Source: Ascidia mentula
Lineage: Eukaryota > Chordata > Ascidiacea > Phlebobranchia > Ascidiidae
Length of the DNA stretch: 64,000 nt
Direction of reading: 5' to 3'
Assembly (NCBI GenBank): GCA_947561715.1
Contig: OX387200.1
Span: forward strand, 17,300,501-17,364,500
The position numbers and the translations under genes were made by a program. Below are positions 13,040 through 46,127 of the stretch, piece after piece (positions within the stretch are counted from its first letter, which is position 1; each line of letters starts with the position of its first letter). The notes under the pieces were generated by a model. The model was given only the letters and a program-made list of their open reading frames with translations, had not been told where the DNA came from and made no database searches.

Positions 13040-16000
13040 CTAAAAATTCTCCAGGTCAGATATGTCAACCTGAATTCTGACATAGATTGTATCTTCCTTG
13101 ATGTAAGAACTCCCATCAACAACATTGTGAGCCACAAAAAGTGGACACCCTGATGCGATATTCATATCTACACAACAATGGCTCTTGTCTTGTCATATCT
13201 ACCTTTTATTATTACAGATTTATCCTAATTGTGATAATGTACCCTTTAATTTTTAGGGTTAAAAAACAATTTAGGTTCATGAAATGCCATCATCTGCAAT
13301 CATGCGTTTCATACATGTTGGTTATATTACTATTAGGTACCAGAGTTGGGTTTTTTGAATGATGATGAAGATGGATCAGGCCTGAATGTATCTGTAAGAT
13401 GTTTGCGATCAGGGCCTTGGTCCAAAAGAAGCAAAGTCACCTGTGTTGCAATGCAAACATATTATGAAAACTTTAAAAAAATTGTAAAATTTTGATGCAT
13501 ACCTTCTGTCTAAACGGCCATGGCAAAAGTGGGTCATAATCTCCTTTCATCACCACAAAGAACAAAGACATATGTGTTCCCTTGCCTGAAATGTGTGATT
13601 AAAGAGCTCAAAAGGAATTGCTTACTAATTGGGTTACTAAAAGGACTGCTTACATAGTTGTGCCTGTTGTATTACCAAAGGTAACTAATTAATTTCTCTA
13701 GGGAGTGTCTACTTACACGTTGCACCATCGCAGTGCCACATGTCAGGCAAAGCCACATTACACAATTAAATAGCAGAAGCTGTAAGTGGGTGTGAAATGA
13801 CATCCTGTCTGCTATCCACACAGTCATCAGTCAGTTTATTTTCCGTGAAACAAATCATTAAGTTGATCAAATTTAGCAGTTTACTTTTAGAATTTAGTGG
13901 GTGATGCTGGCTAGAGGACACAAAATCCTTAATTTACCGCCAACTCACCATCATATAAATACATGATAAAATACTGTACATTTTTACACTTTTTTTGTAT
14001 AACAAACATATTATTTTAAATATATTAAGCAAAACACATGTATTTGTGACTACATTGGTATTTTTTCAATAATTCCTTTGTGTTGTTCCAACACATTATA
14101 CATTTTTAAGATACATTTTATAGCATTTTTTTCCAAATAAAAAAGGCATATCAAGAAAATACCCATTCCATCTCCATTAAGATAGATGCGGGCACACATC
14201 TTGTATCCATATCGGCTTGTATAAAATGGTTGGCTGTAAAGCGACAAACTTCGTCCGGTGACAGCTTCCCTCTTTCTCCGTGCATAATCTTTGATTTTCC
14301 ACACCAACACTCCATTGTAACTTGTGTTCTCCAAAACCTTATTTTGAATTTTAAAAAGTCTTTTTATATTTGTGCTTTATTCATAAGTAAAGGTCAACCT
14401 TAATAGGTGGATGTGTAAAGAAAGTACGTTGCCATACATGGAATACAAGGTGACCACTACTATATTTCAGAAATCGTACATATATATATTGAGAAATGAA
14501 ATAAAAAATACTGTGCAAGAGTTGAAGCTTCTCCAAAAATAAACTTATATCAAAATTTGCAGCAATGAAATTGGGCGTGGGTAGTGAAATAAAAAACCAA
14601 GTTGATTCATTAAACTATACTTTAGTTTGCTACGTCATATATCACAAGAGTTTACAGATAGACACAAGTAACATAACATGTTTCCTATTAGTTTTTAGCA
14701 ACATTTGTACAAAGTGAAAAAGGTTTTTTGTTTCCAAAACCAGGTAATATTGCAACACTAGGGAACAAAAAAAAACTGTAGTAAGGATATATGGGCTATT
14801 GTGATAATCCACACAGTACTAAGTTGTGTTTTATGTTCCCCTGGGAAAAGCAAAAACAATGTTTTTAGATGAAAACACTGTTTGTTTATTTATATATATT
14901 ATTATCATCAGTCATTATTAACATTTCTAAAAAAGGCTGTTGCATTCGTTTGGAGTGTTTTTGTACTTTGTGAGCACACTCAAAAATATTTTGCTGGAAT
15001 TAATACAAACGAAGGACAAGAAATCTTGTGTAAATTATATGCTTGTGTCAAAGATAGGTTGGTCCAAGCAAGAAAAAAAGGTTTAAAAGTAAATTTTTTT
15101 TGGCTATTATTGGTGAAGTTTCCCTTAATATTGAGGTAACTAATGGAATTTTGCGTCCTTATTTTGTATTAATATAGTATTGAATTTCTCAACAGATTAG
15201 TCCTACAATCCTACAGCAACTTGCATTTGCAAAAGCATGAGTCAATAGCACGTACAAATTGAGACTCCCCACAAGAGAGAACAACCATGGTTATATATGA
15301 AAAGAGGGTAATCACAGTCCTATCAGCATTGGAATAACAGAGTGCGAAATGAAATATCACAGGGCACGAAAAATGTTAAGCTTCCCCCATCACAACACCT
15401 CCCCAACAAGATTTTAATAATGTAACACTAAGATTACATTTGAAATAATTGCACGTGGAATAGGAATGTCTAAGGTTCCAAGGTACCAACACCGGGAGTT
15501 CCAGTACGGTACCTCTCTCTGGAACTACTACTTCATCACCAGGCCCATCATGAACAGACACATGATGATCAGGCCGTGTGTCAGTAATGTTGCTCGGTTG
15601 AGACAGAATCTGCTACCAATCTGAGTCACCGCAAGGCTCCTCGTCTTCTGTGGGAGTGTATCGTGGGTGAAGTTGTTCCACACTGCACCATTTGGATACA
15701 CACGAACATCAACACTGTGTGATCCGTAGTGTTTAACAGCTGTTGCAGGCACATATCGTGCTTGACGTTGATCTTTTGTATCGAAATACAATGTATAGCA
15801 TGGATCTCCTGCTTGATAGGAGATTTTGTGACGATTGATTCAAGCTTCTTCGGGTTAGAAGCAAGTCTCGTTTATAGACCTTGTGCCATGTGTACAGGCG
15901 ATTGCAGGAGAATGTCCAAGTTTGTGTGAATTTGAAGTTTAACAGTTCACTTGTGCTTCTTGAGCTTTTTACCTTCCTCCTCCCCATTCCGGGGAAGGGT

Positions 16001-19000
16001 TTGTCCCAAGTATTCCACTTTTGCTCGATCAACTGGCATTTTTTCAATCGACACTGCAGCCCTTTTCGCTTCAAAGATTTCGCAGATGATTTTCAGATGT
16101 GAAGCCACTAACCAAAATATCATCCAACTCCGGATAGGTCACTTGTAAGATCATCCATAACATTCTGAAATATTCAGGTACTGGAGAGATTCCAAAGGCA
16201 AGACATTTTGCAGCAAAACACAGTGTGTACTGAGAGCTAGTCTTTTACTGCTTTCAGGAGTAAACCGGATCTGTTGTAGGCATCTGCCAGATCAATTTTT
16301 GTGAAACAGTGTCAACCTCCCAATCTCCTCATCAGCTGCTCAGGTAACTGCAACGGGTGTTGATGGGCTTCTAGTTGGTGGCAGAAAAATTTGACCGGGT
16401 AACAAAGCTTTACGAAGCTTAGCCCTCTTGCAAGACAATGGGAACAGCTCTTGGCTTGCAATACAATGGACGTGCATGAGACAAAACTGGACGTCGAGCT
16501 CGTAACCATTGAGAAAACCCAATTTTGATGAAAACAACTGTGGAAACGCTTCACAAAGTCTTTGACATGCATTCTGCAGTTTATCATCGTGAATGGCGTT
16601 AACAGGCCTTGGTGCGTCATTGCTCCCACAGAGAAGTCGGTCAAGGGAAATTTTCAGTCGACGGATGCCGTAACGACCACGAAGGTTGAGTCGTGGAATG
16701 TCAGTACAAGAAACGTTACCTTCGTCGTTTGATAGTTAGAACATTCTGCATCTTCAGTAAAATAACCGAAAACTGGCATAGGATGAGCTGTTGCGGGCTT
16801 GTAGCGCAAATCCGATTTTCCGGTTTTCGAAGTTGCGAGCAACCCAACAATTTCCACACAGCTTTGGATACAAAGTAGCCTCCGGCCGCCGTATCCACTT
16901 CCAGCAAGCAGGACTTTGTGTTGATAAGGCTCAGTACCTCAAATTTCGGTGTTTCTGGTGCATCAACGTTTCATAACACGCAGGACATGCTTCTTCACAG
17001 TATCCTTGAAATATTTCACTGTAATTTTTGCGAAACTTTTCCACCTTGTTCACTAATCCTACGAAAACGATAATTCATCACTCTATTTTATGAAAACAGC
17101 TTTCAGACGAACTTCATTCCCAACATAGCAGATGAAATGAGTCCTTAATGCTTCGTCCAATGGGTCGGAAAGTCACAGGTATTGACGATTGTATGCTGCA
17201 AGTTCCTGGATCGATTTCCCCAGCTTTCGCTTTATTTCCTAACCACGAAACGCTTGGAGTCATACTGTTCATCCACGAAAGCTCTAATATCTTCCATCTA
17301 CAAATCGTGTACTTGTTTGGGCGGGTTACCCTGCCATGCCAGATTGGCCAGAAGCTTGTACACGGTACCAGTTTGATTCGTCAGAAAAACTTATGCTCTT
17401 CTTGCCTCCGAAACTTTGTGAGCCTTTAGAAAAGTGAAAAACCTGGATACATAATCCAGGAATCGAAAGCTCTAAAATTAGGCGTGGTCTGGGGTGCGCT
17501 GATATGGGTGGCAGAAATACCCTCACCTGTTTGTAGTAACGTCATCATAGCTTTCATCTGCTTTTAGTGTCTCCGTTCCTCTTTCCTTGTGCATTTTCTT
17601 TTGATTTTTCTTTTGCTGTTCCTTGTGCTTTTCCCTGTGCTTTTCCCTGTGCTTTTCCCTGTGGTTTTCCCTGTGGTTTTCACTGTGGTTTTTCCATTCC
17701 TTGTGCCTTTTCGTTTTTTCCTTTCGTTTTTCCTTTCGTTTTTTCCTTTCCTTGTGCCTCTCTTTGTGCCTTTCCTTGTGCCTTTCCTTGTGCTTTTCCT
17801 TGAGCTTTTTCTGTGCTTCTTACGCTTCTTTAGTCCTTGACAGTATGTAAAAGGCAGTTTTAAGCCCTTGGGAGTCATTGGCCAATATTCCAGGAATTCA
17901 TTGATATGTCTTCAAATTAAACCTTATTCAAATCAAATAACAATAAAGTAAAACAATGTGACTAACATGCCTGACACAAAGCACACTTCATAACGAACAG
18001 CACTAACCAATAATAACCTCCAACAGTAATAACAAACCACAATGTCATGAGGTCACCAGATAAACACAATCCACCAAAAAAGTGTTTCTATTCTTTTGTC
18101 TATTTTACATTTTCTTCTACCTACTATTAATGTCTGTCACTAAGTTGTTGATCTGTGGTAAATAATATTAATTCTCATCTGAGTGTGAAGAGGAGAGGAG
18201 CTTTAACATTAACAGATGTTAAAGTCCTCTAATACATTTGAACTCATTGAGTTTTCCATATTTTGTCCAAGTTTAATTCTTTTTGTATTTTTGATTTAAA
18301 ACAAATAGTGGTTATTTGTTTACAATTTCTCTTTTAGTCACTTAAACATATCCATGTCCTGTTTAATTTCCTGGATTAAAAGTTTTCCATAAATTCTTCA
18401 AAATTTTATGATCCAGCCCTGCTTTAACAGATCCTTCAAACAGATATACCAAAAAATACTATTTATATACCTGAAATCGAAGATCCATCTCTGCAATCCT
18501 CACATCATACATTCCAAGTTGCCTCTCAAAAGCATCTATCATTTGCATCAGGTTGTCTGCAAAAAATACATTTTACAAGTGCTATCTTCACTGGAAGACA
18601 GTGGCGTATCTAGGAGGGTTCCAGGATGCATCCATGCCAGAAGATGTTTACATATGCAGCATATTAACCTGGAACATGACCACTACCGCTAGATGATCCT
18701 CCACTTCTACTGCTAGATTCAACTTTTCGTTCCAATTCTTCCAACTTTTGTCGGATAACAAGCATTTCAGCTTGTTGTTCATCCAACTTTTTCTTGACCT
18801 CCTCAAGTTTCAAGTCGCCATTTTTGAGACCATCAGCAAGTTCCTTCTTCAGTGCAAGATTTTTGTCTGTCTGTGATGCCACCATTTTCTGTAAATAACC
18901 AACAAATCATTTAAGCTCTTTTTTGACATCGGTTAAATTCCAGGCATTGTTTTCTTGCTGTGGTCACATAAAAAGATGCACAAGTTACAATATTTTGTTT

Positions 19001-21367
19001 ATTAAACTACAAGCCATTAATGAGAAAAAAATAGTTTGAATCTGAAAAAAATAGCATGGGGAGACATAAGAAATATTAATTGTTTCTGTTACAAGTGGTG
19101 CATTTCAGATTATTATAGCACTGGCAAAACATCCTCAAGCAAACCTTCATTTTTCACAGATGTTTGGCAACCTATCCCACAAGACTTAAAAAGAGTTTTG
19201 TCAGAATGCCTTTCTGTACAAGACTGCATCTGGTAAAATCTAAAATTGTACCAAACAGTCTTAACTGCTATGTATTTTAATTAATACACCAGGCTCACCC
19301 TATGTCAATTCACCCAATGACCACAACCCCTACTTCTTTAATTTTAATAAAAAACATATGTAAAGTACTGTGGCACAGGCACACAAGCCAAATTTTAGCC
19401 CACTCAGACTAATAGTTTTCGTTTTGGGTAAATTTTACATCTGTATATAGTTTTGAATTTTTATTTATACTACAAATTACAATGACCTTTTGACCTGTGT
19501 TGTTACCCCAAATTTAATCTTGCCGGATGTCTGACCTGGATGTTAACTCGGATGTTAGCCCTTCAACTAAGTCTACCTTAAAGCCATATTCTTCAATAAT
19601 CTATCTGTGTTATCTATCTGCACTAATTTTGATGTTGGAAGATCAATCTGCTTTACTTATAAGATTTGCAAATCCCAAGACTGCAAAAGTAACTCAGCAA
19701 TTTCATCCCTTTGCAAACAACAAGCTTATAAGTTAACCTGATTGATCCACCAACGAATTGTCCCTTGATGTGGTTTCTTTCACATCAAATCCAGACACAA
19801 AAAAAACAAAGCTTCATTTGAAGTTTGTACGATAATAAAACATGGATTAGCAGTAAAGTATGTGCCTGAAGAACATTGGGACATTTTTATTCGTTTCATG
19901 CATCCCTATGGGCAATCTACATTTTTCTACTGGCCAAACCATGAGGATATTTGATGGACCACTTGAGGAAATATGTGTGTAATAGAAACACAATCATTGG
20001 CCTCATAAAGCGTATGCTATAACAGTAGAGGACAATGTAACATTTATAAAAATGTGGATGTAGATGGGTGCTATGAATATATGAATAAGGTTTGCTTTCT
20101 GTATGCATTTGAAAGAAAACGAAGTTTGGTGTGCAAAAAAATGAATTAGGTACAGAAGGCATGCATGAAAAATCCATTCTGTGCAAAAAAAGGGTTTTAA
20201 CTTAAAAATCACTCGTGCATAACCAAACAAAATGTTTTTTGCCTAAATTTCAGTTTTTAAAGTAATGTAACAAGAAAAAACAATGCCCCTACAATTTTTT
20301 GATATGTTTTAGGTAGGTATAAGTTAGACCAAAAAGTTAATAACCTATGGGTCACACATGAGACAATGCCAAATTCAGAGAATTTGTAACAAAGGTCATT
20401 GTAATAATAATACTAATAAAAGAAAAACCAATCACAGATTGAAGATCTGCATTCAATTCGCTTCCAAACAACAGTAAATTCATCAAAAATGGCCCAGGAG
20501 TTTTTGAAAGTGGTTTAAAAACAGAAGGTATATATACAAATTTTGTCCCAAACAAAATACGTTGGAGCGCAACTCTTGAAACACTGGTCCAATTGGGCTA
20601 AAATGTGTGACTGTGCCATAATACTTAACACATATCCCAAATTTATCAAAATTGAAGAGGTCAGGGATGTTATTGTTTGATTTGACACGGAATGACTGTT
20701 TTCCAAGACAAAAATGGAACCAATTTACCTGCAAGTGAGGTAAACTTTGTACACTGCGTTTTACAGATGATGCATCACTTTTGGCTGAATCAGCTTTTTG
20801 AGAAGCCAAGTTTGCCAAAGATTTACCTTCCTGCACCATACGCTGTAATGACTTAAACTGTAATTCCATGGTTCCCTAAAAAACATAACAAAAATCATAG
20901 AATTGTTTTGTGGCATTAATGCTTTAAAAACCTGTAGTGTTTCATAGTTTTTCTGTGACTCAAAGGATTGAGCATCACTGGGAATTGCCTGTGAAAATTA
21001 GAAATTCTTTTTTTTGGCATTGCTTTCAAGTTGTTCAAAAAATTTACCAGCGAGCTTGCTCCAAATTCACCATTTAATGATCCTGGAGGACCTCGCATTG
21101 CATTCATGTCAGGTATAGAGCTTGAAGATGGTGTAGGAGCTGAGTCATAGTGGTCATCAACATTGTGTGACATCGACTAAAAAATATTAAAATGTCAGTG
21201 GTCATCATATTTTTTTACATCAAATTACTTTAGGTGGACTTCAAAAGTAAATAAATGACAGGGAATATCGGATGCTTTTAAAAAGATGTTGTTCACTCCA
21301 GTTGTTACCAAGAAACAAGCAGAAAAAAAACAGAGCTAGTTGTTACCTGTTCTGGGTCCACTTCCAT
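13040..21367 (-). CDS. TRAF3-like TRAF-domain protein, array copy 1
   Basis: TRAF proteins are trimeric adaptors that bind TNF-receptor-type tails through a C-terminal MATH (TRAF-C) domain. Ten exons join in phase: 21347-21367, 21048-21176, 20932-20988, 20729-20875, 18669-18888, 18471-18556, 14163-14337, 13503-13585, 13341-13440 and 13040-13167. They give 381 residues. Residues 1-69 are a Ser/Pro-rich leader (MEVDPEQ, then [11 protein letters not shown]). Residues 70-190 are coiled-coil with a Gly/Ser linker. The MATH domain runs from about 221 to the end and resembles vertebrate TRAF3 most, with [53 protein letters not shown] and [12 protein letters not shown]. There is no RING and no TRAF zinc finger, and the first coding exon begins with a clean ATG, so this is a TRAF-domain-only adaptor and probably not a ubiquitin ligase. 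The 4.1-kb intron at 14338-18470 contains a retroelement fossil. Confidence 0.88.
15230..18060 (-). mobile_element. Broken Ty3/gypsy-type retroelement (fossil)
   Basis: Minus-strand frames between about 15.37 and 16.65 kb resemble the reverse-transcriptase part of Ty3/gypsy pol. A segment near the low-coordinate end resembles the pol C-terminus, and a basic low-complexity stretch lies at the 5' side. The copy is broken, with many breaks. I did not find a convincing pair of LTRs. Boundaries are estimated from where the homologous intron of TRAF copy 2 resumes (32.37 and 32.46 kb), so this insertion is absent from copy 2. It is probably younger than the duplication or was lost from copy 2. Confidence 0.6.
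17560..17835. repeat. Degenerate tandem repeat, TTTTCCCTGTGC type
   Basis: Back-to-back units of about 12 bases built on TTTTCC(C/T)(T)TGTGC run for roughly 270 bp. They give spurious Lys/Arg/Thr-rich minus-strand and Phe/Cys-rich plus-strand frames. The stretch lies at the 5' side of the retroelement fossil and may have been part of it. It does not look like host coding sequence. Confidence 0.7.
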
Positions 21368-21855: not shown

Positions 21856-23401
21856 AGATACCGGTGATCAAAGTTAAGTTTAAACCGTTCCGATCAAAGC
21901 TATACGTTTAAACAAGTGAACAAGTGCAACAAACGGATTTTAATGATAATTTAAGCTCCAGACAGATTGCCACTGTTTCGACGTATTAAGTCTTATTTAG
22001 TTGCGTAATAATAAAACAGTTACTAGGACAAGGTGTTCTTGTGGTTGCAGCTATTATGATCGCTAACGGGATGCATGAACTTCTGCAACCACTCACAGCA
22101 AAACATATAGTAATTGAATTTTAAGGCTGGCAAAGCCCGCTGAGAAAGGCCGACCAAATTAGCTGATTATGCAACACAGTTACACTGTCATAGTATCACT
22201 TTTTGTCTGTCAGTAGCGAGTTTGCGTCATAAATGATTTAATTAATTTGCTACAATCAACCACTATAATGTATTTTTCGCAATATAGTTCGTAACTACAA
22301 ATGTTGGAATCATCAAATTAAAGTCAACACTAAGGTGAGGTTAAAGTTATGACATCACACCCAAAATGACGTCATACAATGTCACTGAGCAAAGAAACGC
22401 ACCATCCCCGTCTTATCGAAGTACAGCGTATGTCGCTGCTGTAATACCCTTTGGTCTTCCCATAATAAGAGACAAATAAGCCTTTAGTTTGTGACGTCAC
22501 AGTGACATATTTTTGTGTGATATAAAACCCTGACCTTTGAGGTAAAGGTAACCTGTGGATTCTCGTATGTTTGAAACTATTCGATATCTGCAATATAAGG
22601 CTGGTACAATGCATTTTTTGACGCGAGCGCCTTGTGTGGCGTCAAATTTGCTGCAGCGAAAAAGCTCTACGATTTTGGTCGTCGCTACTTTTCGTGCAGT
22701 TTTCTGCAATTTTTAGTTGACGTAGAACCGAAAAACTTGGATATATGTTTGTTGTAGATGTTCCTTCAGTTTACGAAAAGTTGCCATGACCGTGTCATAT
22801 GCACTTTATGCCCATTTGAATGTAATGTAATAACTTGCATTGTGCGAAAGGGGTCGGCAAAAAGGGGTAGCAGTCAAACACGAGTCATTTGCAAAACATA
22901 GCCTTTATATGCATCAGACGATTCCATTTCTTTATGCGATGTTTCTATTACTTGCCTTATGTTACTTACACTGATATGGCCTATTATGGGCAATATTCAC
23001 CAGTGTATTGCTAGATTATACGAGGTTAAGGCATATTAGTTAGTATAGATTATACCACCAACAAAAAACTGCTTTTAAGTGCATTAAAATATGTTCTTAC
23101 CTTCTCTTGAAACAGTTCTTCGATGATAGCATTTGTTCATACAATTATGTTGCAATAACAGGAACAATCCAGTAGGAAGGTAGGCTACCGAAAGGGTATT
23201 CCCCTGGTAAAAGATGGTCTTTTGTTTCCAACTCTGCACTGCTCAGCCACAGGGTGCGCTTGACGCAAGATATTTTTTTCGAATGGGCGCGTTGGTGCAT
23301 TTCAATAGGGTGCATTGGTGTTTGGTGTTTTGTTAGCCCTTTTTTGCCACATGACGTATTCTAGTCTTACACATTACCAAGTCTACCACAAATTAACGTT
23401 T

Positions 23402-23516
23402 AACATTTTTTCATTCGTTTTGCCATCTGTGTGAAAAGGTCTTCACAGAGTCTTTCCGTTCAGTAATTTGATAATGCCGTGACATGTATTCAGGTTTTAC
23501 GAAGTACAATCTCCGC
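23402..23516 (-). pseudogene. GNL2 exon 11 fragment (decayed copy)
   Basis: On the minus strand this stretch closely matches part of exon 11 of the intact GNL2 gene (49326-49484), including the part encoding [18 protein letters not shown], with base changes and small length differences. It is one of several GNL2 pieces near the TRAF array, in the same orientation as the functional gene, and is read as the remains of a duplicated GNL2 copy. Confidence 0.75.
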
Positions 23517-25575
23517 TGTCTTGATCACTTGGCAAAAAGCCAAAAACATTATAGCCGGACAAATGGGCAAGAACTTTATCTGTAACGATACTGTGCAAGA
23601 ATTTCCATTGGCAAGTCATTTTATGCTCCAACAACCCAAATATTGGGAGACAAATCCCCGAAATCCCGCCCCCCAGGGATTTTTGACCATGCTTCAACTG
23701 ACATCGGTAATATCTCTCCTACTAAATTGTATATGCTAGTATACAACACACAATAGCCTTGTTTCCATTTTCATGTGATCTACCATTTGAACCGCCGTAC
23801 ATCTGCAGGTTGCTCGGCATTCTACTTTTGTTCAATTCGATTCTGTATTACCGATATGTAGTCACTACCTGCAGCTTCATCTATTACAGTTATTCCGTTT
23901 TGTTATACTGTATTCACACTTATCAATTTGGGCTTTGTAATTGGTAACTAATTGTCTGTCCCAAGTTCGCCAGCGCAGGCTGGCATTGATATTTTCATGT
24001 GAACAGAAACCGAACATTATATTGAATATATTTTTGACACAGCATAGGGTTGCCCAGATAATTTAAGTTATCATGTGACCTGTTTGCAGAGAATTATAGA
24101 TTGTTCGCAATCTCCAGTAAAATCATACAGAACACAAAAGAAACAAAATACTTAACCTGTAAATAAGCACTGCAAAGGAGTAAAACAGAGTTCTTTATAG
24201 AGCACTGTAATGGTTGGTTATTGAGAGGCAAGAGTGTTTCGTTAGAAGTGCACATAAGCTATTTGCTTCATGCTGGACTAAAGAAAATTGTACTGTTTCT
24301 CATAATTTTGTGTTGGTAACAGAATCGACTATTGTACAAAATCTTGCAGTCAAAGAGTAGAACCGAACTGTTGGCAACAGAGCATACTAGGGTAACATAC
24401 CTCTTTTATGTGTGATACATCTTTTTAGGCAAGACCTTTCGAAAACACCAATTGCATTCAGAAACCCAGGCATCGTCTCTATAAAACTGTAAAATTAGTC
24501 TTGAAGAAGATTGACTGATGTCATCAAATCAGCTTTTAAGACAAAATTGAAAAGCAGTTATAATGGTACAATGGGTGGAACATAGTGATTATTGCTGGTA
24601 TCACAGTGCAAATAATGTTTTGTGAAGATTTCGTAACTGAATTATAAACATTTTCATCACAAGGCCATATTTACCGGTGCATCTGTTATCACTTAAAATT
24701 TCCACAAAGGTCAATTCTATCACACATTTCTTTTGATGGTTATTCACTGCTCACTGTTTTTTTGTCAAATCAAAAACACAAAACAACTTATCACCCATGC
24801 TCTAGACAAGTTAGTTTGGAAAATTTCCTTTCATGGTGGATGTAATTGTGTGGATAATGCACGACCTCACCATCCTTTTTCAATAATCAGTTTATTTTCA
24901 CACAACAGATTGCCCCTGTCTGGTACTTGATCCTATGCGCCAGCATTTTCATCCCTGGTAATCAAGTTACAACAAGCACTACTTATATTTGACAAATTTC
25001 GACAAAAATGCTTGAAGTAATTTCACAAAGTTTTATTGTTCACCCTCATACGTACAACTGAACTGAAGAATTTCTTTTGAAGATATTTTTTAGGTACATG
25101 GATAAAACAATGGGTAAGAAGAATACTCCCACATTTAATACTAATCAAACTACTTAAATACAGTAAAAAAACGAATTTAAAAAACAACCTTTCAGCTAAC
25201 CTTTCTTATATCCACTTTCATATTTCTGTAGCATTGTCAAAGCTGGAATTAAATAATTTTGAACAATATTCAGACCCACAGTAAAATATTGTTCTGGACC
25301 ATTTTTTTCGTTGTCGCTTTGATGGTATAGTTTTAGAATGATACGTTACCAAACTCATTCGATGTTTTTATGATTCGTTTGCGATTGCAATCACGCCTCT
25401 TTTTTCAACAAAAGGTTCAAACGGTTATTCCCCTGGTGGTAACAGGCCGTTCTTTTACGTCTTCACAACGATCCAGTTTAAAATACTTGTAGCGAACGCC
25501 ACACCTAATAATTAAAGTATTGTTTTTACATCACAATATCAATTATGGTAAATCATACTTAATATATTAAGACAA

Positions 25576-25656
25576 TATCAAATTACTGGGTGGAGAGACT
25601 CCGAGGACTTTCTTCGCCAGGTAGCAAAGCGAATGGGAAAATTGTTAAAAGTACTG
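25576..25656 (+). pseudogene. Inverted GNL2 exon 11 fragment
   Basis: On the plus strand this reads YQITGWRDSEDFLRQVAKRM and on to GKLLK, then a GTACTG donor, matching the 3' part of GNL2 exon 11 and its splice site. It is a second copy of the same exon within 2.1 kb and lies in opposite orientation to the functional gene. The frame is open over this short span, but no partner exon is attached. Confidence 0.75.
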
Positions 25657-25727
25657 CCATAATTAAAATGTCAAAAACATTTACACAAATATTTTTGTTT
25701 CAGTACACTACCTTTTTCGGAAACCGT

Positions 25728-25883
25728 GACAAACATTAATCCCAACGGATGACGGGTGAAGTCTAGTAGTCTTTGCCTGATCGCATATGGTCGGCAAAGT
25801 TGTCTAGAAGAGTCACACCAAGCTACACTGATGAGATCTTATAGTTCGAAACAATTACCATGTGTCTGCAGCTTACAGAAATT
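25728..25883. mobile_element. Member of the small TIR MITE family
   Basis: Contains the family core (GGCAAAGTTGTC, CACTGATGAGATCTTATAG, TTCGAAACAATTACCA, TGTCTGCAGCTTACA) that is also seen at 30599-30721 and 47236-47381. This copy is degenerate at its left end. Confidence 0.5.
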
Positions 25884-26239
25884 ATTCTGTATGATTGAGA
25901 GCGAGGAAAATACCGTACTTGGCGACTCCCGTTTGTTAAACGATATGTCCTTAGCGAACGTATTGGCCTATGCTAGGATATGCAACACAATAATAACATG
26001 TCACAGCAGCAGTTTCAAATTGTGTGATACACAATTACGAGGAAAAGGCAATTTTGCGCCCGAAATACTATTATCTTTCAAAGTTTTGAAATAGATCAAA
26101 TCCACGCGCAAGTGTTGGTATTTCAGAACGTTTTTCTTGAGCATAAAACTTTAGTTTTGGTCGAATCATCACAAATTATTTGGTTAAAACCGAAACTTCC
26201 TCGAAATTGCTAATTCGGCGAACCGAAGCGTGTTTTTTT

Positions 26240-26480
26240 GGGGGTAGATTTGGTGTAGACACTTTGTCTTAGCATAAACAATATTCTTAGGAAATTATCT
26301 CTACAGAATATGACTTACCACACCCTTTAGGACGATTTCAGTTTCAGTATCGTCGCTTGGTTGAACGATTCCAGGACAATCAACAAAAAAATTGCTTCAT
26401 AAATGTGATGTATTGCTATACCTGGTTAACAGATAAGGAACACCTTCTTGGCAGTTTATATTTTGACACAGTTAGACATA
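26240..26480 (-). pseudogene. GNL2 exon 10 fragment with flanking intron
   Basis: Matches the GNL2 region 49500-49700 including intron sequence on both sides. The exon-10-like part is 26320-26421, with the donor (GTAAGT) still recognisable. It contains changes that break the reading frame relative to the parent (ATGAAGCGAATT has become TTTATGAAGCAATT). It is in the same orientation as GNL2, and it sits in the expected order after the 23.4-kb exon 11 fragment. Confidence 0.8.
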
Positions 26481-28390: not shown

Positions 28391-28451
28391 GTTACTAATC
28401 CTTGCTGGCAGCTGATGTTTTTGGTGTGATTATTACGCCTGATAAAATGTA

Positions 28452-29892: not shown

Positions 29893-29904
29893 TTTTAGAA
29901 GGAC

Positions 29905-30287: not shown

Positions 30288-33200
30288 TTAACAGAAAATA
30301 TTTTTGCTACCTCTATGACGGGCGGAGAGAGACAGACCTTCCACTGTTAGGGAGTCCACAAGGGTTCTTCCAAAGGGAGCACCAAAATTATCCAGGTTGG
30401 AAGTAACAACCTGAATTCCAATGAAAATTGTATCTTCCTTGATGTAAGAACTTCCATAAATGACATTTTGAGCCACAAAAAGAGGAAACCCAGATGCACT
30501 GTTCATATCTACACAAAAGATGTATTTGTAGCTTCAATAAAATTTAATTACAATAAACTATTAGCAATGATAAGCAAAGTGGAGTCAATAATATAAATTG
30601 TGTAAGCTGCATACGGATGAAGTCTTTGGTTGGCAAAGTTGTCCATAGTCACACCCAGCTGCACTAATGAGACCTTTTAGGTTTAAACAGTGGCCAACTG
30701 TATGCAGCTTACACAATTTAGCAATGATCTGTTTAATATCAAAAAAAGGAAGTCATTGAGTTGTACTTAACACTTTACTGTAATTTATATAATTTAGTTA
30801 TATTTTTGCTTGCTACCGGAAGTAGGTTTCTTGAAACAATGCAAACGTGGATCAGGACTAAATGAGCGTGTTAGATGTTGACGATCAGGTCCCAGATCAA
30901 AAAGAACAAGGTTCACCTGTGTTTTAATACATAAAACTAACATCACAACAAACAGAAACATCTATACAGACAGTAAATATCATATAACATGCCTTGTGTG
31001 TAAATGGCCATGGCAGAAGTGCATCATAATCTCCTTTCATCAACATAAAGAACAAAGACATGTGTGTGTCCATGCCTGAAACAATTTTTAAAATCAACAT
31101 TAAAATTAAAAAAAAAATTAGAAGGTTAATTCTAGGATTGGTATCCCAAATCTAACATTTTTTACTCAGTAACCCTGTGTAAAATTAATTTTGAAATTCA
31201 TAAAGCAAATTAACAAAATACCCATTCCATGGCCATTAAGGTGGATGCGAGCACATATCTTGTATCCATATTGGCTCGTATAAAATGGCTGGCTGTGAAG
31301 TGACAAACTTCGTCCGGTGACAGCTTCTCTCATTCTCCGTGCATAATCTTTGATTTTCCACACCAACACTCCATTGTAACTTGTGTTCTCCAAAACCTTG
31401 TTTTGAATTTTAAAAGTCTTTTTATATTTGTTCTTTATTCATAAGTAAAGGTCAAGCTTCATAGGTTGAGATGTAAAGAATGTATGTTGCCAGAGTACAA
31501 GTTAAAAATCCAAGTTGATTAATTAAAATATAGTTTAGTTTGTTATATCTTTACAGATATACATGTTTTTTAGTAACAAAGTTTTTTTTTATTTCCAAAC
31601 CAAGTGATGTCATATTGTAACTTGGGGAAGAAAACAAAGCTGTAGCAGGGATATAAAGACAATTGTGATTTTTCACACTGCAAGAAAATAATTTTTCAAA
31701 AGTACAATTTTGTTTGCTATTATTAGTTTAGGATGCATGTTGGTATTTCTATGAAAATAAGTTTTGGTGGTGGGAAATACCCACCAGATAGACCTCTGTC
31801 ACAATGGAAAGAGCATGTCACAAAGTGATGCAAATAAGTCAATTTTTCGGTTGAATGAGCACACATGCATGTGCTGTTGACATGGCGAATTTTAGGGTGT
31901 TTGGGGCAGTTCTCGCGGGGTTTTGGGGTATTTTAATCAGGTGGTTACTGGCTGCTGCTGAAAATTATGGTGAAAATGGAGAACAAAATTCAGATTGTAT
32001 TTTTGGAAAAATGAATCGTTTAAGTGGTCAATTATTCGTGATTTTATGAAAGATTCATCATTCATCCCAGATGAAAAATTTTTGATCAAAGTTAGTCTCT
32101 AGAAAAATAGTTTAGCCACACCCCTTTTTTTAACTTTGTAGAGTATTAGTCCTATGTAAGTCACAAGACCCATCTACGGTCATTGGGAAACAAGCAGAAC
32201 AGTCGCCAGATGCATTACAGCAAAGGGCCTTGAAAACAAGATTTCTCCAATTTAATAATACACATATAGGTCTCCCTCAATGTTGATGTAATTAATGGAA
32301 TTTTGCTTCCTTATTTTGCATTAACTTAGTATTGAATTACTCGGCTGACTAGTCCTACAATCCTACAGCATCTAAGTATATGATGTAAACAGCTATGCTT
32401 TCTACTTGTGGCTTACTGTGAGAATCCTTGAACTCAAGGCTCCTTCGTTGCAAGAAATTTGTTTTTATTCCTATGGCTGTTTTACATTTTTTTTCTACTT
32501 TACAAACTTCTACTAATTTCTGTCACTTGTTGAATCACTGTGGTAAATATTATAAAATCTTCATCTGAATGTAGACTGCATATCAGGAATTCTTTTAAAG
32601 AAGTTTTGTGTGCAGGAAGTGCCCACCTTATAGTCCTCTGTTATAAAGAAAGATGCTATGTAACAAAGCAACCGGTGATGCAGTAAGGTCAAATTTAGGG
32701 TTGAATGAGCAGGAACGCATGTGCTGTTGCCAGGGCCATTTTCAGAGTGTTTGGTGCAGTTTTAGTGCATTATTTGGCCTTTTCGGTCAGCTAGTTATTT
32801 AGTGCTGGGTGTTGTCAAAAAGTTTGTTAAAAAAGCAGCAAAATGTTTAAGGGGATGCAGCTAAAAAATGAATCACAGAGGTATACCTTCATTTGTCATT
32901 TTATGTTAGGCCCTTTGTTTATGCATTTATGTCAAAATTAGTTGCAGGATAGTTGCTTAAAGCAAGGGTTCTCCTGGGTGGTCTGCAGCGACTGCACGGG
33001 GGTCCGTAAAGATATATCTAAAAACATTTCATACAGTGCGAAAGCAGTAATCAATGCAGTGCTTCATAACTAGAGTGGTTTAGTAAGCTTTACAATACGT
33101 ACATTGTACAATTACTTTACTTTTAAATGGTTCACTATCTTTGTATTTTACGATTTCAAAGTTGTTTTTAATTGTTTCTTTTACTATGCGTCTATGATGT

Positions 33201-36200
33201 AAGAATTAACATTTATCGACGATGAAGTTCTAGTGAGGTTAAGGTCGTATTTGCTGTTTTGTTGAGTTAAGTTACAGGTGATTTTGTGATTACACCAAAC
33301 TAAATTGAGTGTCGAGTTGTTGAACTTTAAACTAAAGTAGATTATGGAAAAATTTCTGATATGCAATAGCCATGCCGATAATTCGATTAATTCGGAAAAC
33401 GCAGTTTTAATCAATCAGATCTTGCATCATTCATCATTCTGATTTACCCAGAATACATGCTATATACCTGAAATCCAAGATCCATCTCTGCAATTGTCAC
33501 ATCATACATTCCAAGTTGCCTCTCAAAAGCATCAATCATTTGCATCAGGCGGTCTGCAAACATCATAATTTACTAGTTTCATCTTCACTGGAAGACATGA
33601 GTGTATCTAGGAGGGTCCCTGGATTCATTCATACTAGAAGATGTTCACATATGTAGCGTATTAACCTGGAGCATGACCACTGCCGCTAGATGATCCTCCA
33701 CTTCTACTGCTAGATTCAACTTTTCGTTCCAATTCTTCCAACTTTTGTCGGATAACAAGGATTTCAGCCTGTTGTTCCTCCAATTTTTTCTCGACCTCCT
33801 CAAGTTTTAAGTCGCCATTTTTAAGACCAAGTTCCTTCTTCAGTGCAAGATATTTGTCTGTCTGTGATGCCACCATTTTCTAAAAAAATAACCAATAAAT
33901 CATTTAAGCTCTTTTTTGACATCGGTTTAATTCCAGGCATTGTTTTCTTGTTGTGGTCATAAAAAAGATGCACAAGTTACAATTTTTATTTATTAAACTA
34001 CAAGCCATTAATGAGATCAACTAGTTTGAATCAGAAAAAAATAGCATGTGGAGGTATAAGAAATATTAATTGTTTCTGTTACAAGTGGTGCATTTCAGAT
34101 TATTATAGCACTGGCAAAACATCCTCAAGCAAACCTTCATTTTTCACAGATGTTTCGCCACCTATCCCACAAGACTTAAAAAGAGTTTTGTCAGAATGCC
34201 TTTCTGTACAAGACTGCATCTGGTAAAATCTAAAATTGTACCAAACAGTCTTCACTGCTATGTATTTTAATTAATACACCAGGCTCATCCAATGTCAATT
34301 CACCCAATGACCAAAAACCTACTTCTTTAATTTTAATAAGAAACACATGTGTAAAGTACTGTGGCACAGTAACACAAGCCAAATTTTAGCCCACTCGGAC
34401 TAATAGTTTTCTTTTTGGGTTAAATTTTACATCTGTATATAGTTTTGAATTTTTATTTATACTACAAATTACAATGACCTTTGTTGTTACCCCAAATTTG
34501 ATCTTGCCTGATGTGTGACCTGGATGTTAATTCGGATGTTCGCCCTTCAATTTTTAGGTCTACTTTAAAGCCATATGCTTCAATCATCTATCTGCTTCAT
34601 CTATCAGCACTAATTTTGATGTTGGCAGATCAATCTGCTTTACTTATAAGATTTGCAAATCCCAAGACTGCAAAAGTAACTCAGCAATTTCATCCCTTTG
34701 CACACAACAAGCTTATAAGTTAACCTGATTGATCCACCAATGAATTGTTCCTTGATGTGGTTTCTTTCACATCAATCCAGACACAAACAAACAAAGCTTC
34801 ATTTGTAGTTTGTACAAGAATAAAGCATGGATTGGGACATTTTTATTCGTTTCATGCATCCCTATGGGCAATCTACATTGTTCTGCTGGCCAAACCATGA
34901 AGAAATTTGTTGGACCACTGAAGAAAATATTTTGTGTGTAATGGAAACACAATTATTGGCCTCATAAAGCGGACATATGCTATAACAATAGAGGACAATG
35001 TAACAATTATAAGAATGTGGATGAAGATGGGTCCGATGAATATATAAATAGGGTTTATTTTCTGTATGCATTTGAATTAGGTACAGAAGGCTTGGATGCT
35101 TCAAAGGTAGGTAAATTACATACAAGGCAATAAAAGTCACCCAACTGCCGTATTTGATGCCACAGTTGACAGGAAAATAAGAGTATTGCTAAAATATCCA
35201 TTCTGCAGAAAAGGGGTTTTAACCCAAAAATCACTCTTGCATAACCAAACACAATGATATTTGCCTAAATTTCAGTTTTTGAAATGATGTAACAAGAAAA
35301 AAAAATGCCCCTCCAATTTTTTGATATGTTTAGGTACGGTAGACCAAAAAGTTAATAACCTCCGGGTCACACATAAGACTATGTCAAAAGCAGAGTTGTA
35401 ACAAAGGTCATTGTAATAATAATACAAAAAATACAAACCAATCACAGAATAAAGATCTGCATTCAATTCACTTCCAAACAACACTAAGTTCATCAAAATT
35501 GGCCACTAGTTTTTGAAATATAGTAGTTTTAAAACAGAAGGCATATATCCCAGTTTTGTCCCAAAACAGACACGTTGGAACGTAACTCTTGAAACACTGG
35601 TCCAATTAGACTAAAATGTGTGACTGTGCCATAATACCTAACACAACTCCCCAAATTTGTCAAAATTGAAGAGGTAAGGGATGTTATTATTTGATTTGAG
35701 ATGGAATGACTGTTTTCCGAAACAAAAATGGAACCAATTTACCTGCAAGTGAGGTAAACTTTGTACACTGCGTTTTACAGAAGATGCATCACTTTTGGCT
35801 GAATCAGCTTTTTGAGAAGCCAAGTTTGCCAAAGATTTACCTTCCTGCACCATACGTTGTAGTGACTTAAACTGTAATTCCATGGTTCCCTGGAAAACAT
35901 AACAAAAGTCATAGAATTGTTTTGTGCCAATAATGCTTTAAAAACCTGTAGTGTTTCATAGTTTTTCTGTGACTCAAAGAATTGAGCATCACTGGGAATT
36001 GCCTGTAAAAATCAGAAATTCAGATTTTGACATTGCTTTCAAGTTGTATAAGATTTACCAGCGAACTTGCTCCAAATTCACCGTTTAACGATCCTGGAGG
36101 ACCTCGCATTGCATTCATGTCAGGTATAGAGCTTGAAGAGGGTGTAGGAACTGAGTCATAATGGTCATCAACATTGTGTGACATGGACTGAAAAATATTT

Positions 36201-36932
36201 AAATGCCAGTAAATCATTAGATTTCTTAAAATAAACAATGTTTAGGGTGAAAATATTTAGTGTTACTGATTGTCAAATTGAATTCTCTTGATTTGGCACT
36301 CTTTGATACAACACATTTAATAATTTGATTTTCAACACCCAGGAATCTAAATCATAATTTCGAAGGCCATTGTGACATGATTTGCCTAAGATAAGTGTAT
36401 TCTTGTTTCCCCAATATATATCTGTTAATTTAAGGTACAACATCCCATTGTATATAAAAATGCCATGGCAAAGTTAAGTGTCATACAGGAATTATGCAAG
36501 GCACATACTTAATAAAGCAAAATTTCATTTAGTTTCAGGTGAATAATTTATAAATCCACCAAAACCTACAAATTCAATGTGATAATGACTAAATCAATGA
36601 TGCACATTGGGTGTGATATTTGAACATGTTATAGTGACGTAGAGTACTTTTGCATTTCATGAAAAAAGGGATAAAAATTGTAATGTTTAGTGTATCCCTT
36701 TTTATTATTGTAAGCCTGGGCACCTCATTTTTCATTCGATTATCCTACAAATATTTTTTCAATAAGGAACTGTTGTCTTTAACCCGAACTATGACGTTTT
36801 AGATAGATTAAACTCACACTGTGCTTGAGCATATTTTACCAAAAGTTTCACCTAAAACTATTTAAAAGAGTTACTATAGACAAACAAGGCATGGGAGACC
36901 TAATGTATTACTTGTTCTTGGTCAACATCCAT
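30288..36932 (-). CDS. TRAF3-like TRAF-domain protein, array copy 2
   Basis: Same gene plan as copy 1, ten exons in phase: 36912-36932, 36059-36187, 35946-36002, 35743-35889, 33666-33879, 33468-33553, 31222-31396, 30993-31075, 30817-30916 and 30288-30508, giving 410 residues. It starts MDVDQEQ, then [11 protein letters not shown], coiled-coil, Gly/Ser linker and MATH domain ([59 protein letters not shown]). No RING or zinc finger. The MATH core is less conserved than in copy 1 (LNGHGMG, then FDLGPDRQHLTRSFS). The donor after the exon at 30993 is GC, not GT. The reading frame runs past the usual domain end. It may stop at 30288, or splice at 30311 to short exons 30206-30246 and 30118-30132, ending TTQPKRRQ. 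The coiled-coil exon is two codons shorter than in copy 1. Confidence 0.83.
30599..30721. mobile_element. TIR MITE in the last intron of TRAF copy 2
   Basis: Ends TGTGTAAGCTGCATACGGAT and CAACTGTATGCAGCTTACACA are inverted repeats. The middle carries CAGCTGCACTAATGAGACCT and GTTTAAACAGTGGCC, the same core as the 47236-47381 element. It is absent at the matching place in copies 1 and 3. Confidence 0.75.
31776..31880. repeat. Direct repeat with 32617-32735
   Basis: A segment in the large intron of TRAF copy 2 recurs about 840 bp away in the same orientation. Shared blocks include CCCACC(A/T), ATAG(A)CCTCTGT, GTTGAATGAGCA and GCATGTGCTGTTG(A/C)CA. Probably two copies of one repeat or a local duplication. 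Family unknown. Confidence 0.55.
32148..32275. repeat. Dispersed repeat, also at 41700-41822
   Basis: About 125 bp starting CCTATGTAAGTCACAAGACC and ending ATATAGGTC match 41700-41822 closely, with a few substitutions and a small gap. Same orientation. May be a transposable-element fragment or part of the ancestral duplicated block. Confidence 0.7.
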
Positions 36933-37118
36933 TTTTCTGTAAAGTTGTTCTTCACAAAGCTAAAAATTTAGTTGTTTTTTAGCAACAGATTGAGTCACTG
37001 AGTACTTTGGTTCTAAAAGAAAGCACACCGCTGTAGTTTTGTTGGGATAAAACAAAAAAAAACTTCCGAACCAACACCATAACCACCACACGGTGCTTCC
37101 CCAGGGAAAGTTGGTGGT

Positions 37119-41900: not shown

Positions 41901-42026
41901 TAATACACTTTACATTTGAGCTAATATGTATGCTAATATGAAAACTGTAGAGTTGTGAAGAGATAATGGCAAATAATACAAAAAAATTGTGCAGGCATGT
42001 ATTAGCACCACCCAAATGTTTTGCAG

Positions 42027-42097
42027 TACCTTTCCTAACTGATGCAACAAGTTAATTAGAGCGCCTTATCCAAAAGGATTGGTGATTTATACATGCG
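42027..42097 (-). pseudogene. GNL2 exon 8 fragment (decayed copy)
   Basis: Matches the 3' half of GNL2 exon 8 and its donor region at 50107-50176, the part encoding [18 protein letters not shown], with substitutions and indels. It lies upstream of TRAF copy 2 in the order expected if the duplicated unit was TRAF plus GNL2. Confidence 0.7.
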
Positions 42098-42444
42098 TTT
42101 TATGTTAGCCTCAACACCTGGCAGAATAGGTTGGTTGAATGTCACGCATAGACCTACGCTATCGGTCTGCCTATATCTGGCCCTTATAGGTACTAACATC
42201 AGGTATGATGGGTCAGATATTCGCAACCGATCCCCAGTCTCTTAGTTTTTAGTGAATATATTGTGCAGTGAAAGAACAATGAATAAGTACGGCGAAGAGG
42301 CAATAATTATTATTTTGTATTTAATAATGAAGAGTTGGCCCTGAAGCATTGAATTCTGTGCATCAAAAACAAAAATAAAATCAAAACAAAAACAATGATG
42401 GGCAGGTTCATGTGGTGGTCACATAAATTGATATTACCCTCTGG

Positions 42445-45400
42445 TTAGCCCCCAGAAACGTTGTTGAGATCAAATGCAAAAACTTTAAGTTTAATGAAGA
42501 TTGTGTCATCCTTTATGTAACAACTCCAATCAAGATCATCATGAACAATAAAATAAGGAAAACCCACTCCAAAGTTCTTGTCTAAACAATACATGCAGTT
42601 AGAAAGGTATATCATATGCCAGGATATCATATATTATCTGTTTAACAATTATATATTTTGCTTTCCAACTTTTACCTACCGGATGTGGGCCTCCCAAAAT
42701 TTGGAAAAATTGAATCTGGCAGAATCGTGTTTGTTTTATGTTTGAAATTAGGACCTTGGTCCAGAAGACATAATGTCACCTGCGTTCAATGCAAAGTAAA
42801 CATTTAAAACACAAAAACAATTCACACAACAATGATTCACACCTTCTGTCTAAATGGCCATGGTAAATGTTGATCATAATCTCCTTTCATCACCACAAAG
42901 AACAAGGACATGTGTGAACCTTCACCTGAAATTAGTTAAACACAAAACAACAGTTATCAATTAGAACTAGAAGACAATGTATGTAATCTATGCTTAAGTT
43001 CATCAGGTTTTGTGTTGATTTTCGGACAAAATATTTTAATATGGTACAATTTGCAGGTAAATAGTAAAGTATATCTCTCAAGCAGCTAAAGCCAGCAGTT
43101 TAGTATGTGTTTTGTACCATTTAAATATAAAATATAGCTTTGCTTTAGAATACATTGAAGCTGTGAAATTGTTTTCATGAGTTATGTACAACATGTATCA
43201 CTTTAAATTCTTTCTCAAAATTATGAAAATAGGCCTGAATGTTTTCAATATTTGAAATTTGTTTTGTACACAAGCTTTGGCCATGACATACATTTCTTCT
43301 TCAGTAGCATTTCAACATGTGTTCTTATTAGCACTTTTTACAACGAAAAATTCCAAAAGCAAACAAGGAAATACCTAATCCGTTGCCATTAGGATAGATG
43401 CAAGCACACATCTTGTATCCATATCGACTTGTATAAAACGGTTGGCTGTAAAGCGACAAACTTCGTCCGGTGACAGCTTCTCTCTTTCTCCGTGCATAAT
43501 CTTTGATTTTCCACACCAACACTCCATTGTAACTTGTGTTCTCCAAAACCTTATTTTGTAGCAATAAAACAAATCCTTAAAATACAGAAAACTTGGCTAT
43601 AATCCACAAGTAGATATAAAAAAATTCCTATAAACAGTAGTCCGCTAGGAGAAAAGAATGTGCCAATAAGTTATCTCTCTTAGTAATATCACAAACATTT
43701 ATTATTCATTTAGTATTGGGCCTGAAATACATCCTGTAAGTGCGGAGACTGCTTAACTTGAGCAGATTTAAAAACCAATGTAAATTCATCGCTTTGTGCG
43801 TCGAATGTAAAAATTATGTGACCCAGCTACGAGGAGTTGGTCATGTGAACGGGGTTATTGGTACAAATCTTGCATTGGAGCGACAAAGACCCTATAATGG
43901 CTTCCTGGAATACACTTTTTTGACGAATCCAGGATAAATAACTAAATATTACAAACAAGTTACACTATCTAATCTTTTCAGTTTCAAACCACTTAAAAAG
44001 AGTCACTAAAAAGCATAACCTGGAATCGACAATCCATCTCTGCAATTCTCACATCATACATCCCAAGTTGCCTCTCAAAAGCATCTATCATTTGCATCAG
44101 GTTGTCTGCAAACAACACATTTTACAAGTGTCATCTTCACTGGAAAACATAGGTATATCTAGGAGGGGCCCTGGATGCATCCATGTCAGAAGATGTTCAT
44201 ATAAGCAGCTTATTAACCTGGAGCATTATCACTGCCGCTTGATCGTCCACTTCTACTGCCAGATTCAACTTTTCGTTCCAATTCTTCCAATTTCTGCCGG
44301 ATAACAAGGATTTCAGCTTGTTGTTCATCCAACTTTTTCTTGACCTCCTCAAGTTTCAAGTCGCCATTTTTGAGACCATCAGCAAGTTCCTTCTTCAGTG
44401 CAAGATTTTTGTCTGTCTGAGATGCCACCATTTTCTAAAAATTACCAACAAATAATTTAGGATCCTTTTTGACATGGGTCAAATTCCAGGCCTTGTTTTT
44501 TCTGTGTTAAAAAAAGAAATGCACAAGTTACCATTTTTGGTTTATTAGGACACAAGCCATTAATGAGATAAATTAGTTTGAATCAGAAAAAAACATGGTG
44601 AGGTATAAGAAACATTACTTCTGTAACTAGAAATCCATTTCAGATTTTTGTCGTACTGGAAAAACATCTTCAAGCACACCTTAACTTTTCACAGATGTTC
44701 GGCCTTATTAAGCAGAACATATACTATAACAGAAGCGGATGATGTAACAATTATCAGAATGTGGACATAGTGGGGTGCTATGAATACGGCATATTTTTTT
44801 TGTGTATATACGCAAAGAAAAATGAGTTTGGTGCAAAACCTTATGGACAGAAAGAATGCTTCAAAGGTACGTTGGAATAAATGAATGACAATGCAATAAA
44901 AAGTCACCCAACTGCCCTTTTTGATACCACAGTTTACAGGAAAATAACAGTATTGCATTAAAAAAATCCATTCTGTGCAGAAAAAGGGTTTTAATACTCT
45001 TGCATAACCAAACAAAATGTTTTTTGGCTAATGTTCAGTTTTTAAAGTGATATAACACAAAAAAATGCTCCTTCAATAACTTGATATGTTTGAATTAATA
45101 GGTAGACCAAAAAGTTAATAGCCTCCGGTAACACATAACAAAGGTCAGTGTAATAATAAAACAAAAAATTGAAAAACAATCACAGTGGGATCTGTTTTTA
45201 ATTAGCTTTCAAACAACTTATCAAAATTGGCCCAGTAGTTTTTTAAATATAGGGGTTTAAAAACAGAAGGTATATCCTAACTTTGTCCCAAAACGAAAAT
45301 TTTGGAGAGTAACTCTTGAAAAACTGGTCCAATTGGGCTAAAATTTGGACTAAAATGTGTGACTGTGCCGTAATACTTAACAAATATGCCAAATTCAGTT

Positions 45401-46127
45401 ATTATTTGATTTGACATGGAATGACAGTTTTCCTGAAACAAAAATGGAACCAATTTACCTGCAAGTGAGGTAAACTTTGTACACTGCGTTTTACAAATGA
45501 TGCATCATTTTTGGCTGAATCAGCTTTTTGAGAAGCCAAGTTTGCCCAAGATTTAGCTACCTGCACCATACGTTGTAGTGACTTAAACTGTAATTCCATG
45601 GTTCCCTACAAAACATAACAAAAATTATAGAATTGTTTTGTGGCTTTAACACTTTTAAAAACCTGTAGTGTTTCATAGTTTTTCTGTGATTCAAATGATG
45701 GAGCATCACTGGGAATTGCCTGTGAAAATTAGAAATTCAGATTTTGACATTGCTTTCAAGTTGTATAAGATTTACCAGCGAACTTGCTCCAAATTCACCA
45801 TTTAATGATCCTGGAGGACCTCGCATAGCATTCATGTCAGGTATAGAGCTTGAAGAGGGTGAAGGAACTGAGTCATAGTGGTCATCAACATTGTGTGACA
45901 TGGACTGAAAAAAAATTAAAATGCCAGTAAATCATTAGATTTCTTTATGTTAACGATGTTTGGAGCAAAAATATTTAATGTTACTAATTCTCAAATTGAA
46001 TTCTCTTGGCATCTATGACGTTATAGATAGGTTACACTTACACGTGCTTGGGCATATTTTACCGTAAGTTTCAATCACTATTCAAAAAGATTGTATAATG
46101 TATTACTTGTTCTTGGTCAACATCCAT
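42445..46127 (-). CDS. TRAF3-like TRAF-domain protein, array copy 3
   Basis: Third member of the array, with the same exon plan and phases: 46107-46127, 45776-45904, 45663-45719, 45459-45605, 44218-44434, 44020-44105, 43375-43549, 42843-42925, 42680-42779 and 42445-42581, giving 383 residues. It starts MDVDQEQ, then [11 protein letters not shown]. The coiled-coil and the first MATH exon are well kept ([29 protein letters not shown]). The last two MATH exons are the most divergent of the three: after LCLLDQGPN the segment is unlike copies 1 and 2, and MNIASG is replaced by KNFGVG before the conserved [13 protein letters not shown]. No RING or zinc finger. Introns are much shorter than in copies 1 and 2, giving a gene of 3.7 kb. 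Ligand preference may differ. The minus-strand AATAAA at 41881-41886 is a candidate 3' end. Confidence 0.83.

Follow-up and report, generated by a model that had tools for sequence, protein, structure and literature searches.

Among the described proteins that most resemble the genes reported here, the mammalian TRAF3 is said to be both an adaptor and a ubiquitin ligase (PMC3697994). The vertebrate TRAF1 is RING-less and keeps one zinc finger, and its coil forms 1:2 heterotrimers with TRAF2 coils (PMC6305416). The initial annotation of the locus had held that only TRAF1 lacks the RING in vertebrates and that it keeps a zinc finger, a statement that is right as it stands but incomplete as a view of the family, since the TRAF3 of the shrimp Litopenaeus vannamei is reported to lack both the RING and the zinc fingers and is active in antiviral IRF-Vago signaling (PMC7518466). 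In the lamprey, two TRAF3 subtypes have been described, for which a local tandem duplication was proposed (PMC7179693), and the oyster is credited with 15 TRAFs, four of which occur in pairs (PMC4346834). Regarding tunicates, Traf3 has been named downstream of Tlr2 in Ciona (PMC9960688), and a review of tunicate immunity mentions TRAF transcripts in a list (PMC5465252).

Here, a stretch of 64,000 nucleotides from the ascidian Ascidia mentula, hereafter the window, was analyzed, and the presence of three RING-less, TRAF3-like genes in tandem, named A, B, and C, was confirmed at the level of the sequence. Unless a contig is named, the coordinates are those of the window.

Organization of the Array

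The coding spans of the three genes lie on the minus strand at 13040..21367 (A, 381 residues), 30288..36932 (B, 410 residues), and 42445..46127 (C, 383 residues), the A stop codon ending at position 13040 and the C ATG beginning at 46127. The models were built by hand from splice signals and from comparison among the copies. Each of them contains ten exons joined by one intact open frame, and 26 of the 27 introns are of the GT-AG type, the remaining one being intron 8 of B, which is GC-AG (donor after the exon at 30993-31075). The claim of three complete ten-exon genes on one strand thus holds with exact coordinates, open frames, and plausible splice sites. In each copy, a Ser-rich leader is followed by a putative coiled-coil stretch and then by a TRAF-type MATH domain. 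Gene B is devoid of the stop codon used by A and ends in an extra C-terminal tail of 31 residues (30288-30383), absent from A and C.

The starts proposed at MEVDPEQ (A, exon 1 at 21347..21367) and MDVDQEQ (B, 36912..36932; C, 46107..46127) are supported by an in-frame stop above each ATG: a TAA located 18 nt, i.e., six codons, upstream in A, and, for B and C, a stop ten codons upstream that overlaps a possible acceptor AG.

Several repeats were noticed in the same region. Pieces common to 23396-26540, between A and B, and 49294-49822 are found in both orientations with 76-82% identity. They were considered as a duplication of GNL2, an idea that was abandoned, and they are probably a dispersed repeat, since one piece is inverted and the tblastx matches fall in many frames on both strands. 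Besides, intron 6 of A harbors minus-strand open stretches reminiscent of a degraded retroelement polyprotein (15500-17400), as well as an internal repeat on the same strand encoding a Lys/Glu/Arg/His-rich stretch (17581-17818).

Absence of RING and Zinc-Finger Domains

Neither a RING nor a TRAF zinc finger was found by Pfam in A, B, or C. A hidden zinc-binding domain in the leader or the stalk appears very unlikely, since the first 215 residues of every copy are free of cysteine: the first one is residue 266 in B and residue 216 in C, while A has only two, at 268 and 347, both in the MATH region.

The same picture emerges from five genome-wide domain searches, none of which gave a match in the window, so that the absence of both domains claimed for the array is borne out. 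The zf-TRAF model gave seven matches (five over the cut-off), the RING models PF13923 (E 0.001), PF00097 (E 0.01), and PF13920 (E 0.01) gave 41, 60, and at least 121 matches (150 of 151 candidates scored for the last), and the TRAF2/3/5 RING model at E 1 gave six weak matches, none over the cut-off. Three RING-bearing loci, which we take to be TRAF4 (contig C67:18.37-18.39 Mb), TRAF6 (C67:5.96-5.98 Mb), and TRAF7 (C69:9.71 Mb) from their domain layout and general resemblance, served to gauge sensitivity. All three show zinc-finger and RING pieces, accompanied by MATH pieces in TRAF4 and TRAF6 and by WD40 pieces in TRAF7. Their RINGs were recognized in three of three cases by PF00097, in two of three by PF13923, which misses TRAF4, in one of three by PF13920 (TRAF7 only), and in two of three by the TRAF2/3/5 model, two of whose six weak matches are the RINGs of TRAF6 and TRAF4.

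It is highly improbable that RING or zinc-finger exons of the true genes lie far upstream and went unnoticed. Long gaps do occur, as some 11 kb separate the TRAF4 RING exon of this genome, the very one that escapes PF13923, from the first TRAF4 zinc finger below it; in addition, nine codons above the ATG of B and C remain in open frame until the possible acceptor is reached, and a loose RING-core motif matches the minus strand of the window at 14102, 41753, and 53256. However, these three matches lack the C-x-H-x2-C-x2-C tail common to the RINGs of TRAF4, TRAF6, and TRAF7, a pattern that has no match on the minus strand of the window and a single one on the plus strand (43170), and neither the core nor the tail motif occurs in the 10 kb next to the window. 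Besides, no RING or zf-TRAF model matches the window, the next gene on this strand, presumably GNL2-like judging from its sequence, ends only about 2.2 kb from C, and use of an acceptor 20 nt above the ATG of A would leave an in-frame stop inside its first exon. A loose zinc-finger pattern also matches the window at 20385 and 55837 (plus strand) and 57259 (minus strand), and these matches are taken for chance.

TRAF3 Affinity and Other TRAF and MATH Loci of the Genome

The TRAF-type MATH family PF21355 is recognized in all three copies, with E values of 1.7e-48 (A), 1.8e-42 (B), and 2.9e-42 (C), and MATH families are the only Pfam families above the cut-off. The weak matches below it (GrpE, DUF7603, Tup_N, and MATH) are coil-type noise or MATH again. 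Among solved structures, a ranking that covers copy A, the five best chains are all TRAF3, with 304-313 bits, followed by the best chains of TRAF5 (237), TRAF2 (225), TRAF1 (199), an unnumbered "TNF receptor-associated factor" (139), TRAF4 (133), and TRAF6 (79 bits). The likeness of A to TRAF3 is, as judged from these scores, far beyond chance. For B and C, the comparison was with human TRAF3 alone; of 154 MATH residues, 109 are identical to it in A, 96 in B, and 88 in C. Taken together, the chain ranking of A and the PF21355 matches of the three copies uphold the description of the MATH domain as TRAF3-like.

The presence of a full-length, RING-bearing TRAF3 parent in the same genome had been proposed as a check. 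The MATH, zf-TRAF, and RING model searches revealed no RING- or zinc-finger-bearing TRAF1/2/3/5 gene in this genome, and A, B, and C are the only TRAF1/2/3/5-type genes that the domain-model searches found. Since TRAF4, TRAF6, and TRAF7 were each seen once in these searches whereas the window contributes three genes, the notion of a local expansion is also well founded. More precisely, the 12 genome-wide matches of PF21355 are distributed over TRAF4 (one), TRAF6 (two), the window (six), meprin-like loci (two), and an intronless fragment (one), and the 15 matches of PF22486 comprise the PF21355 loci, including five pieces in the window, together with USP7-, SPOP-, and TRIM37-like loci. Five candidates for a TRAF2 were set aside in this process. 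Two of them, C1:18498902 and C1:12086162, adjoin MAM-like pieces, the second one also a membrane span, and are presumably meprin-like; the three others were read as different MATH proteins, which we take, from their resemblance, to be USP7-like (C2:8058877), SPOP-like (C67:9242690), and possibly TRIM37-like (C69:10013001).

The intronless fragment, 198 bases long and located on contig C71 (L026:4983-5180), matches A exons 7-9 with 72% identity and looks like an old processed copy; as it spans these exons without introns, it suggests that a spliced TRAF3-like transcript was once present in the germ line.

Further observations were made during these genome-wide searches. BIR domains gave at least 132 matches (from 150 scored candidates out of 160). 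Some form dense clusters, for instance at C69:5.67-5.73 Mb, C52:19.2-20.6 Mb, and C72:0.76-0.81 Mb, and others are scattered copies of identical score, a pattern that suggests a large IAP expansion in which mobile elements may have played a part. Six PF13920 matches lie in open frames of 2409-2434 residues (C70:11861576, 11894559, and 11942156; C2:6514172 and 6580526; C67:3682608), which may form a family of giant, single-exon frames with a RING. Finally, an open stretch containing COX1 on contig C79 holds 18 AGA/AGG codons, 16 of which lie beyond the beginning of COX1; these presumably fall at conserved glycines, in agreement with the ascidian mitochondrial code, in which AGR is read as Gly, and thus mark the host as a tunicate.

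Two Strata of Divergence Along the Genes

The three copies are not equally divergent along their length. The synonymous difference per site (pS) over exons 1-7 is 0.143 (A-B), 0.151 (A-C), and 0.155 (B-C), whereas over exons 8-10 it reaches 0.490, 0.601, and 0.524, respectively, a gap that was never attained, in any pair, when codons were permuted 5000 times among the exons. At the protein level, the coil block has 141/149, 138/150, and 132/148 identical residues in the three pairs, and exons 8-10 have 71/103, 60/103, and 51/103. The low-divergence part includes exons 2-6, which encode the leader and the putative coiled coil (18471..21176 in A, 33468..36187 in B, and 44020..45904 in C, minus strand). 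These exons are 93-98% identical between A and B, whose introns 2-5 are 80-94% identical in the aligned pieces, and in each of the three pairs introns 2-5 can be matched, with 72-96% identity over the aligned pieces. Intron 6 matches, patchily, between A and B only, that of C giving no match with either, and introns 7-9 show no match in any pair at E 0.001. Exon 7, which encodes the first part of the MATH domain (14163..14337 in A), is still 90-94% identical in all three pairs, with a dS of 0.21-0.27, among exon-by-exon identities that leave out the B-C value for exon 9. Exon 8 is intermediate (dS 0.38-0.73), and exons 8-10 together (minus strand, 13040..13585 in A, 30288..31075 in B, and 42445..42925 in C) have a dS of 0.77-1.24.

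At the other end of the genes, exon 1 of B and C is identical in DNA, while that of A has 17 of 21 bases in common with them and differs at two of three synonymous sites, and so lies outside the homogenized block; of A intron 1, only the last 40-48 bases match B or C. Moreover, B and C have common DNA around and just above exon 1 (36789-37075 with 46013-46269, 80%), for which the self-comparison of the window reported no like match to A, so that the promoters of A and of B/C may differ.

The two strata are likely due to gene conversion in the 5' part, the simplest reading of the identities being that of old tandem genes whose exons 2-7 were homogenized, possibly in separate tracts. Alternatively, a recent duplication of exons 1-7 onto older, pre-existing 3' ends would produce the same strata without any conversion. 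Such a scenario is less probable, albeit far from negligible: the high identity of exon 7 in every pair, flanked as it is by introns with poor matches or none, would require separate tracts, and the intermediate exon 8 suggests a gradient rather than a single break. Since C intron 6 is unmatched while exon 7 is 90-94% identical, any conversion tract at exon 7 would have been little longer than the exon itself.

Besides its sequence conservation, the stalk shows a heptad periodicity that reaches significance in A, B, and C alike only around residues 57-133; at residues 169-203 it is significant in A and B, not in C, and in most other stalk windows it is not significant. The alignment of A to the TRAF3 chain 8zuk extends to residue 82. 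TRAF-N coils trimerize. With a stalk block that is 89-95% identical between the copies, mixed trimers among A, B, and C are likely.

Receptor-Binding Groove

The receptor contacts of TRAF2 have been listed as R393, Y395, F410, L432, F447, S453-S455, F456, and C469 (PMC6125299), and were mapped onto the copies by alignment to human TRAF3. All ten are kept in A, where R393 and Y395 are encoded by exon 7 and the serine finger and hydrophobic pocket by exons 8-10. In comparison, five of ten are kept in B and four of ten in C, the TRAF4 of the same genome having two. The serine triad, SSS in A, reads L-H-C in B and F-P-N in C, so that the serine finger is gone in both; in addition, C469 is replaced by F in B and C, and F447 by I in C. 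The initial annotation regarded all three proteins as receptor-binding adaptors, a view that the alignment supports for A only, as B and C are devoid of half or more of the contacts.

Human TRAF3 and A agree at 109 MATH positions, of which 19 are changed in B and 27 in C. The changes affect contacts more often than other positions (5/10 versus 14/99 in B; 6/10 versus 21/99 in C; Fisher p=0.014 each), an enrichment that is modest, as the three serines are adjacent and so not independent, and that falls to p=0.03 (B) and 0.11 (C) within exons 9-10 alone.

These changes could also be the mark of failing duplicates, in which the 3' exons of B and C drift for want of any further need to bind receptors, the altered groove being mere decay. 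The number of changed positions, the GC donor and the lost stop codon of B, and the pN/pS of exons 8-10 between B and C, whose 95% interval extends over 0.40-0.83, all point in this direction. Nevertheless, the three frames are open with plausible splice sites, and pN/pS is below 1 in every pair (0.21-0.46 and 0.26-0.57 for the two others) despite the high dS of these exons. Such values, indicating that the 3' exons evolve as protein-coding sequence, argue that B and C still make protein, and decay is held to be an unlikely explanation.

Proposed Function

The favored explanation, advanced tentatively as it falls somewhat short of an even chance as a whole, is that of a triplicated RING-less TRAF3-like scaffold, in which A docks on receptors, B and C have altered heads, and the stalk is kept alike by conversion. 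The locus would have arisen when the one gene of the TRAF1/2/3/5 class that the searches revealed in this tunicate was triplicated in tandem, the ancestral gene, with its TRAF3-like MATH domain, having presumably lost the RING and the zinc fingers before the triplication. The genes are presumably expressed. A would most likely be a pure scaffold, trimerizing through its coiled coil and docking through its intact groove on tails of the PxQxT/E type, while ubiquitin ligase activity would be supplied by partners such as TRAF6 or IAPs rather than by A itself; recruitment of such a ligase through BIR/IAP proteins is speculation. B and C, whose stalk is nearly identical, would enter mixed trimers with A and yet not dock on the same tails, thereby changing the avidity of the complex or re-aiming it. 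In such a scheme, gene conversion across exons 2-7 would keep the stalks compatible while exons 8-10 diverge.

In the initial model, the three proteins were thought of as equivalent dominant-negative dampers competing for the same TNF- or Toll-type receptors. The lack of RING and zinc finger in every copy would suit this role, and the vertebrate TRAF1 is said to resemble a dominant-negative TRAF2 (PMC6305416). However, about half of the contact residues are missing from B and from C, and no RING-bearing TRAF2 or TRAF3 was found in the genome with which they could compete; as a model for all three copies alike, this one is improbable. Dampening and trimerization by the array proteins are plausible in themselves, and, within the favored scaffold explanation, the proteins may be re-aimed or act as brakes.

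A more far-reaching version would see in this animal a chordate whose TRAF1/2/3/5 class is RING-less only, with an array built on a common stalk and a variable head, in which conversion keeps the stalk, the heads diversify, and combinatorial mixed scaffolds differ in their docking. This version is regarded as doubtful, markedly more so than the favored explanation.

Comparison with Known Systems

With human TRAF3 (PDB 8zuk, 1flk, 1kzz), the array shares a similar MATH domain, and the alignment of A runs on into the coiled coil; it differs by the lack of RING and zinc fingers, by a Ser-rich leader of its own, by its three tandem copies, and by the altered groove of B and C. Being RING-less, the array resembles the vertebrate TRAF1, but its genes have neither the single zinc finger of that protein, none being detected by Pfam, nor, as far as the scores of A tell, a TRAF1-like MATH domain, the TRAF1 chains reaching 196-199 bits and the best of them standing 105-114 bits below the TRAF3 chains. 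The lamprey genes are similar as a proposed local tandem duplication of TRAF3 but, unlike the array, keep RING and zinc finger (PMC7179693). In the same line, the shrimp TRAF3, unlike the array genes, is reported to be without the coiled coil as well, and the available part of that report mentions no tandem array (PMC7518466).

A TRAF3 without RING and zinc fingers is thus a known kind of protein, which limits the weight of the array, known here from genome sequence. In a literature survey by title and beginning of abstract, partial in coverage and including few subscription journals, no RING-less TRAF3 array was found in a tunicate. Relative to the literature found, the locus is a variant whose new features are the homogenized stalk and the divergent heads of an array, set in a genome from which the searches recovered no TRAF1/2/3/5 with a RING. 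A chordate that apparently keeps only a ligase-less TRAF3 offers a test of how much of the signaling needs a RING of its own, and the array constitutes a natural test of whether changed heads on a common trimer stalk rewire the choice of receptor.
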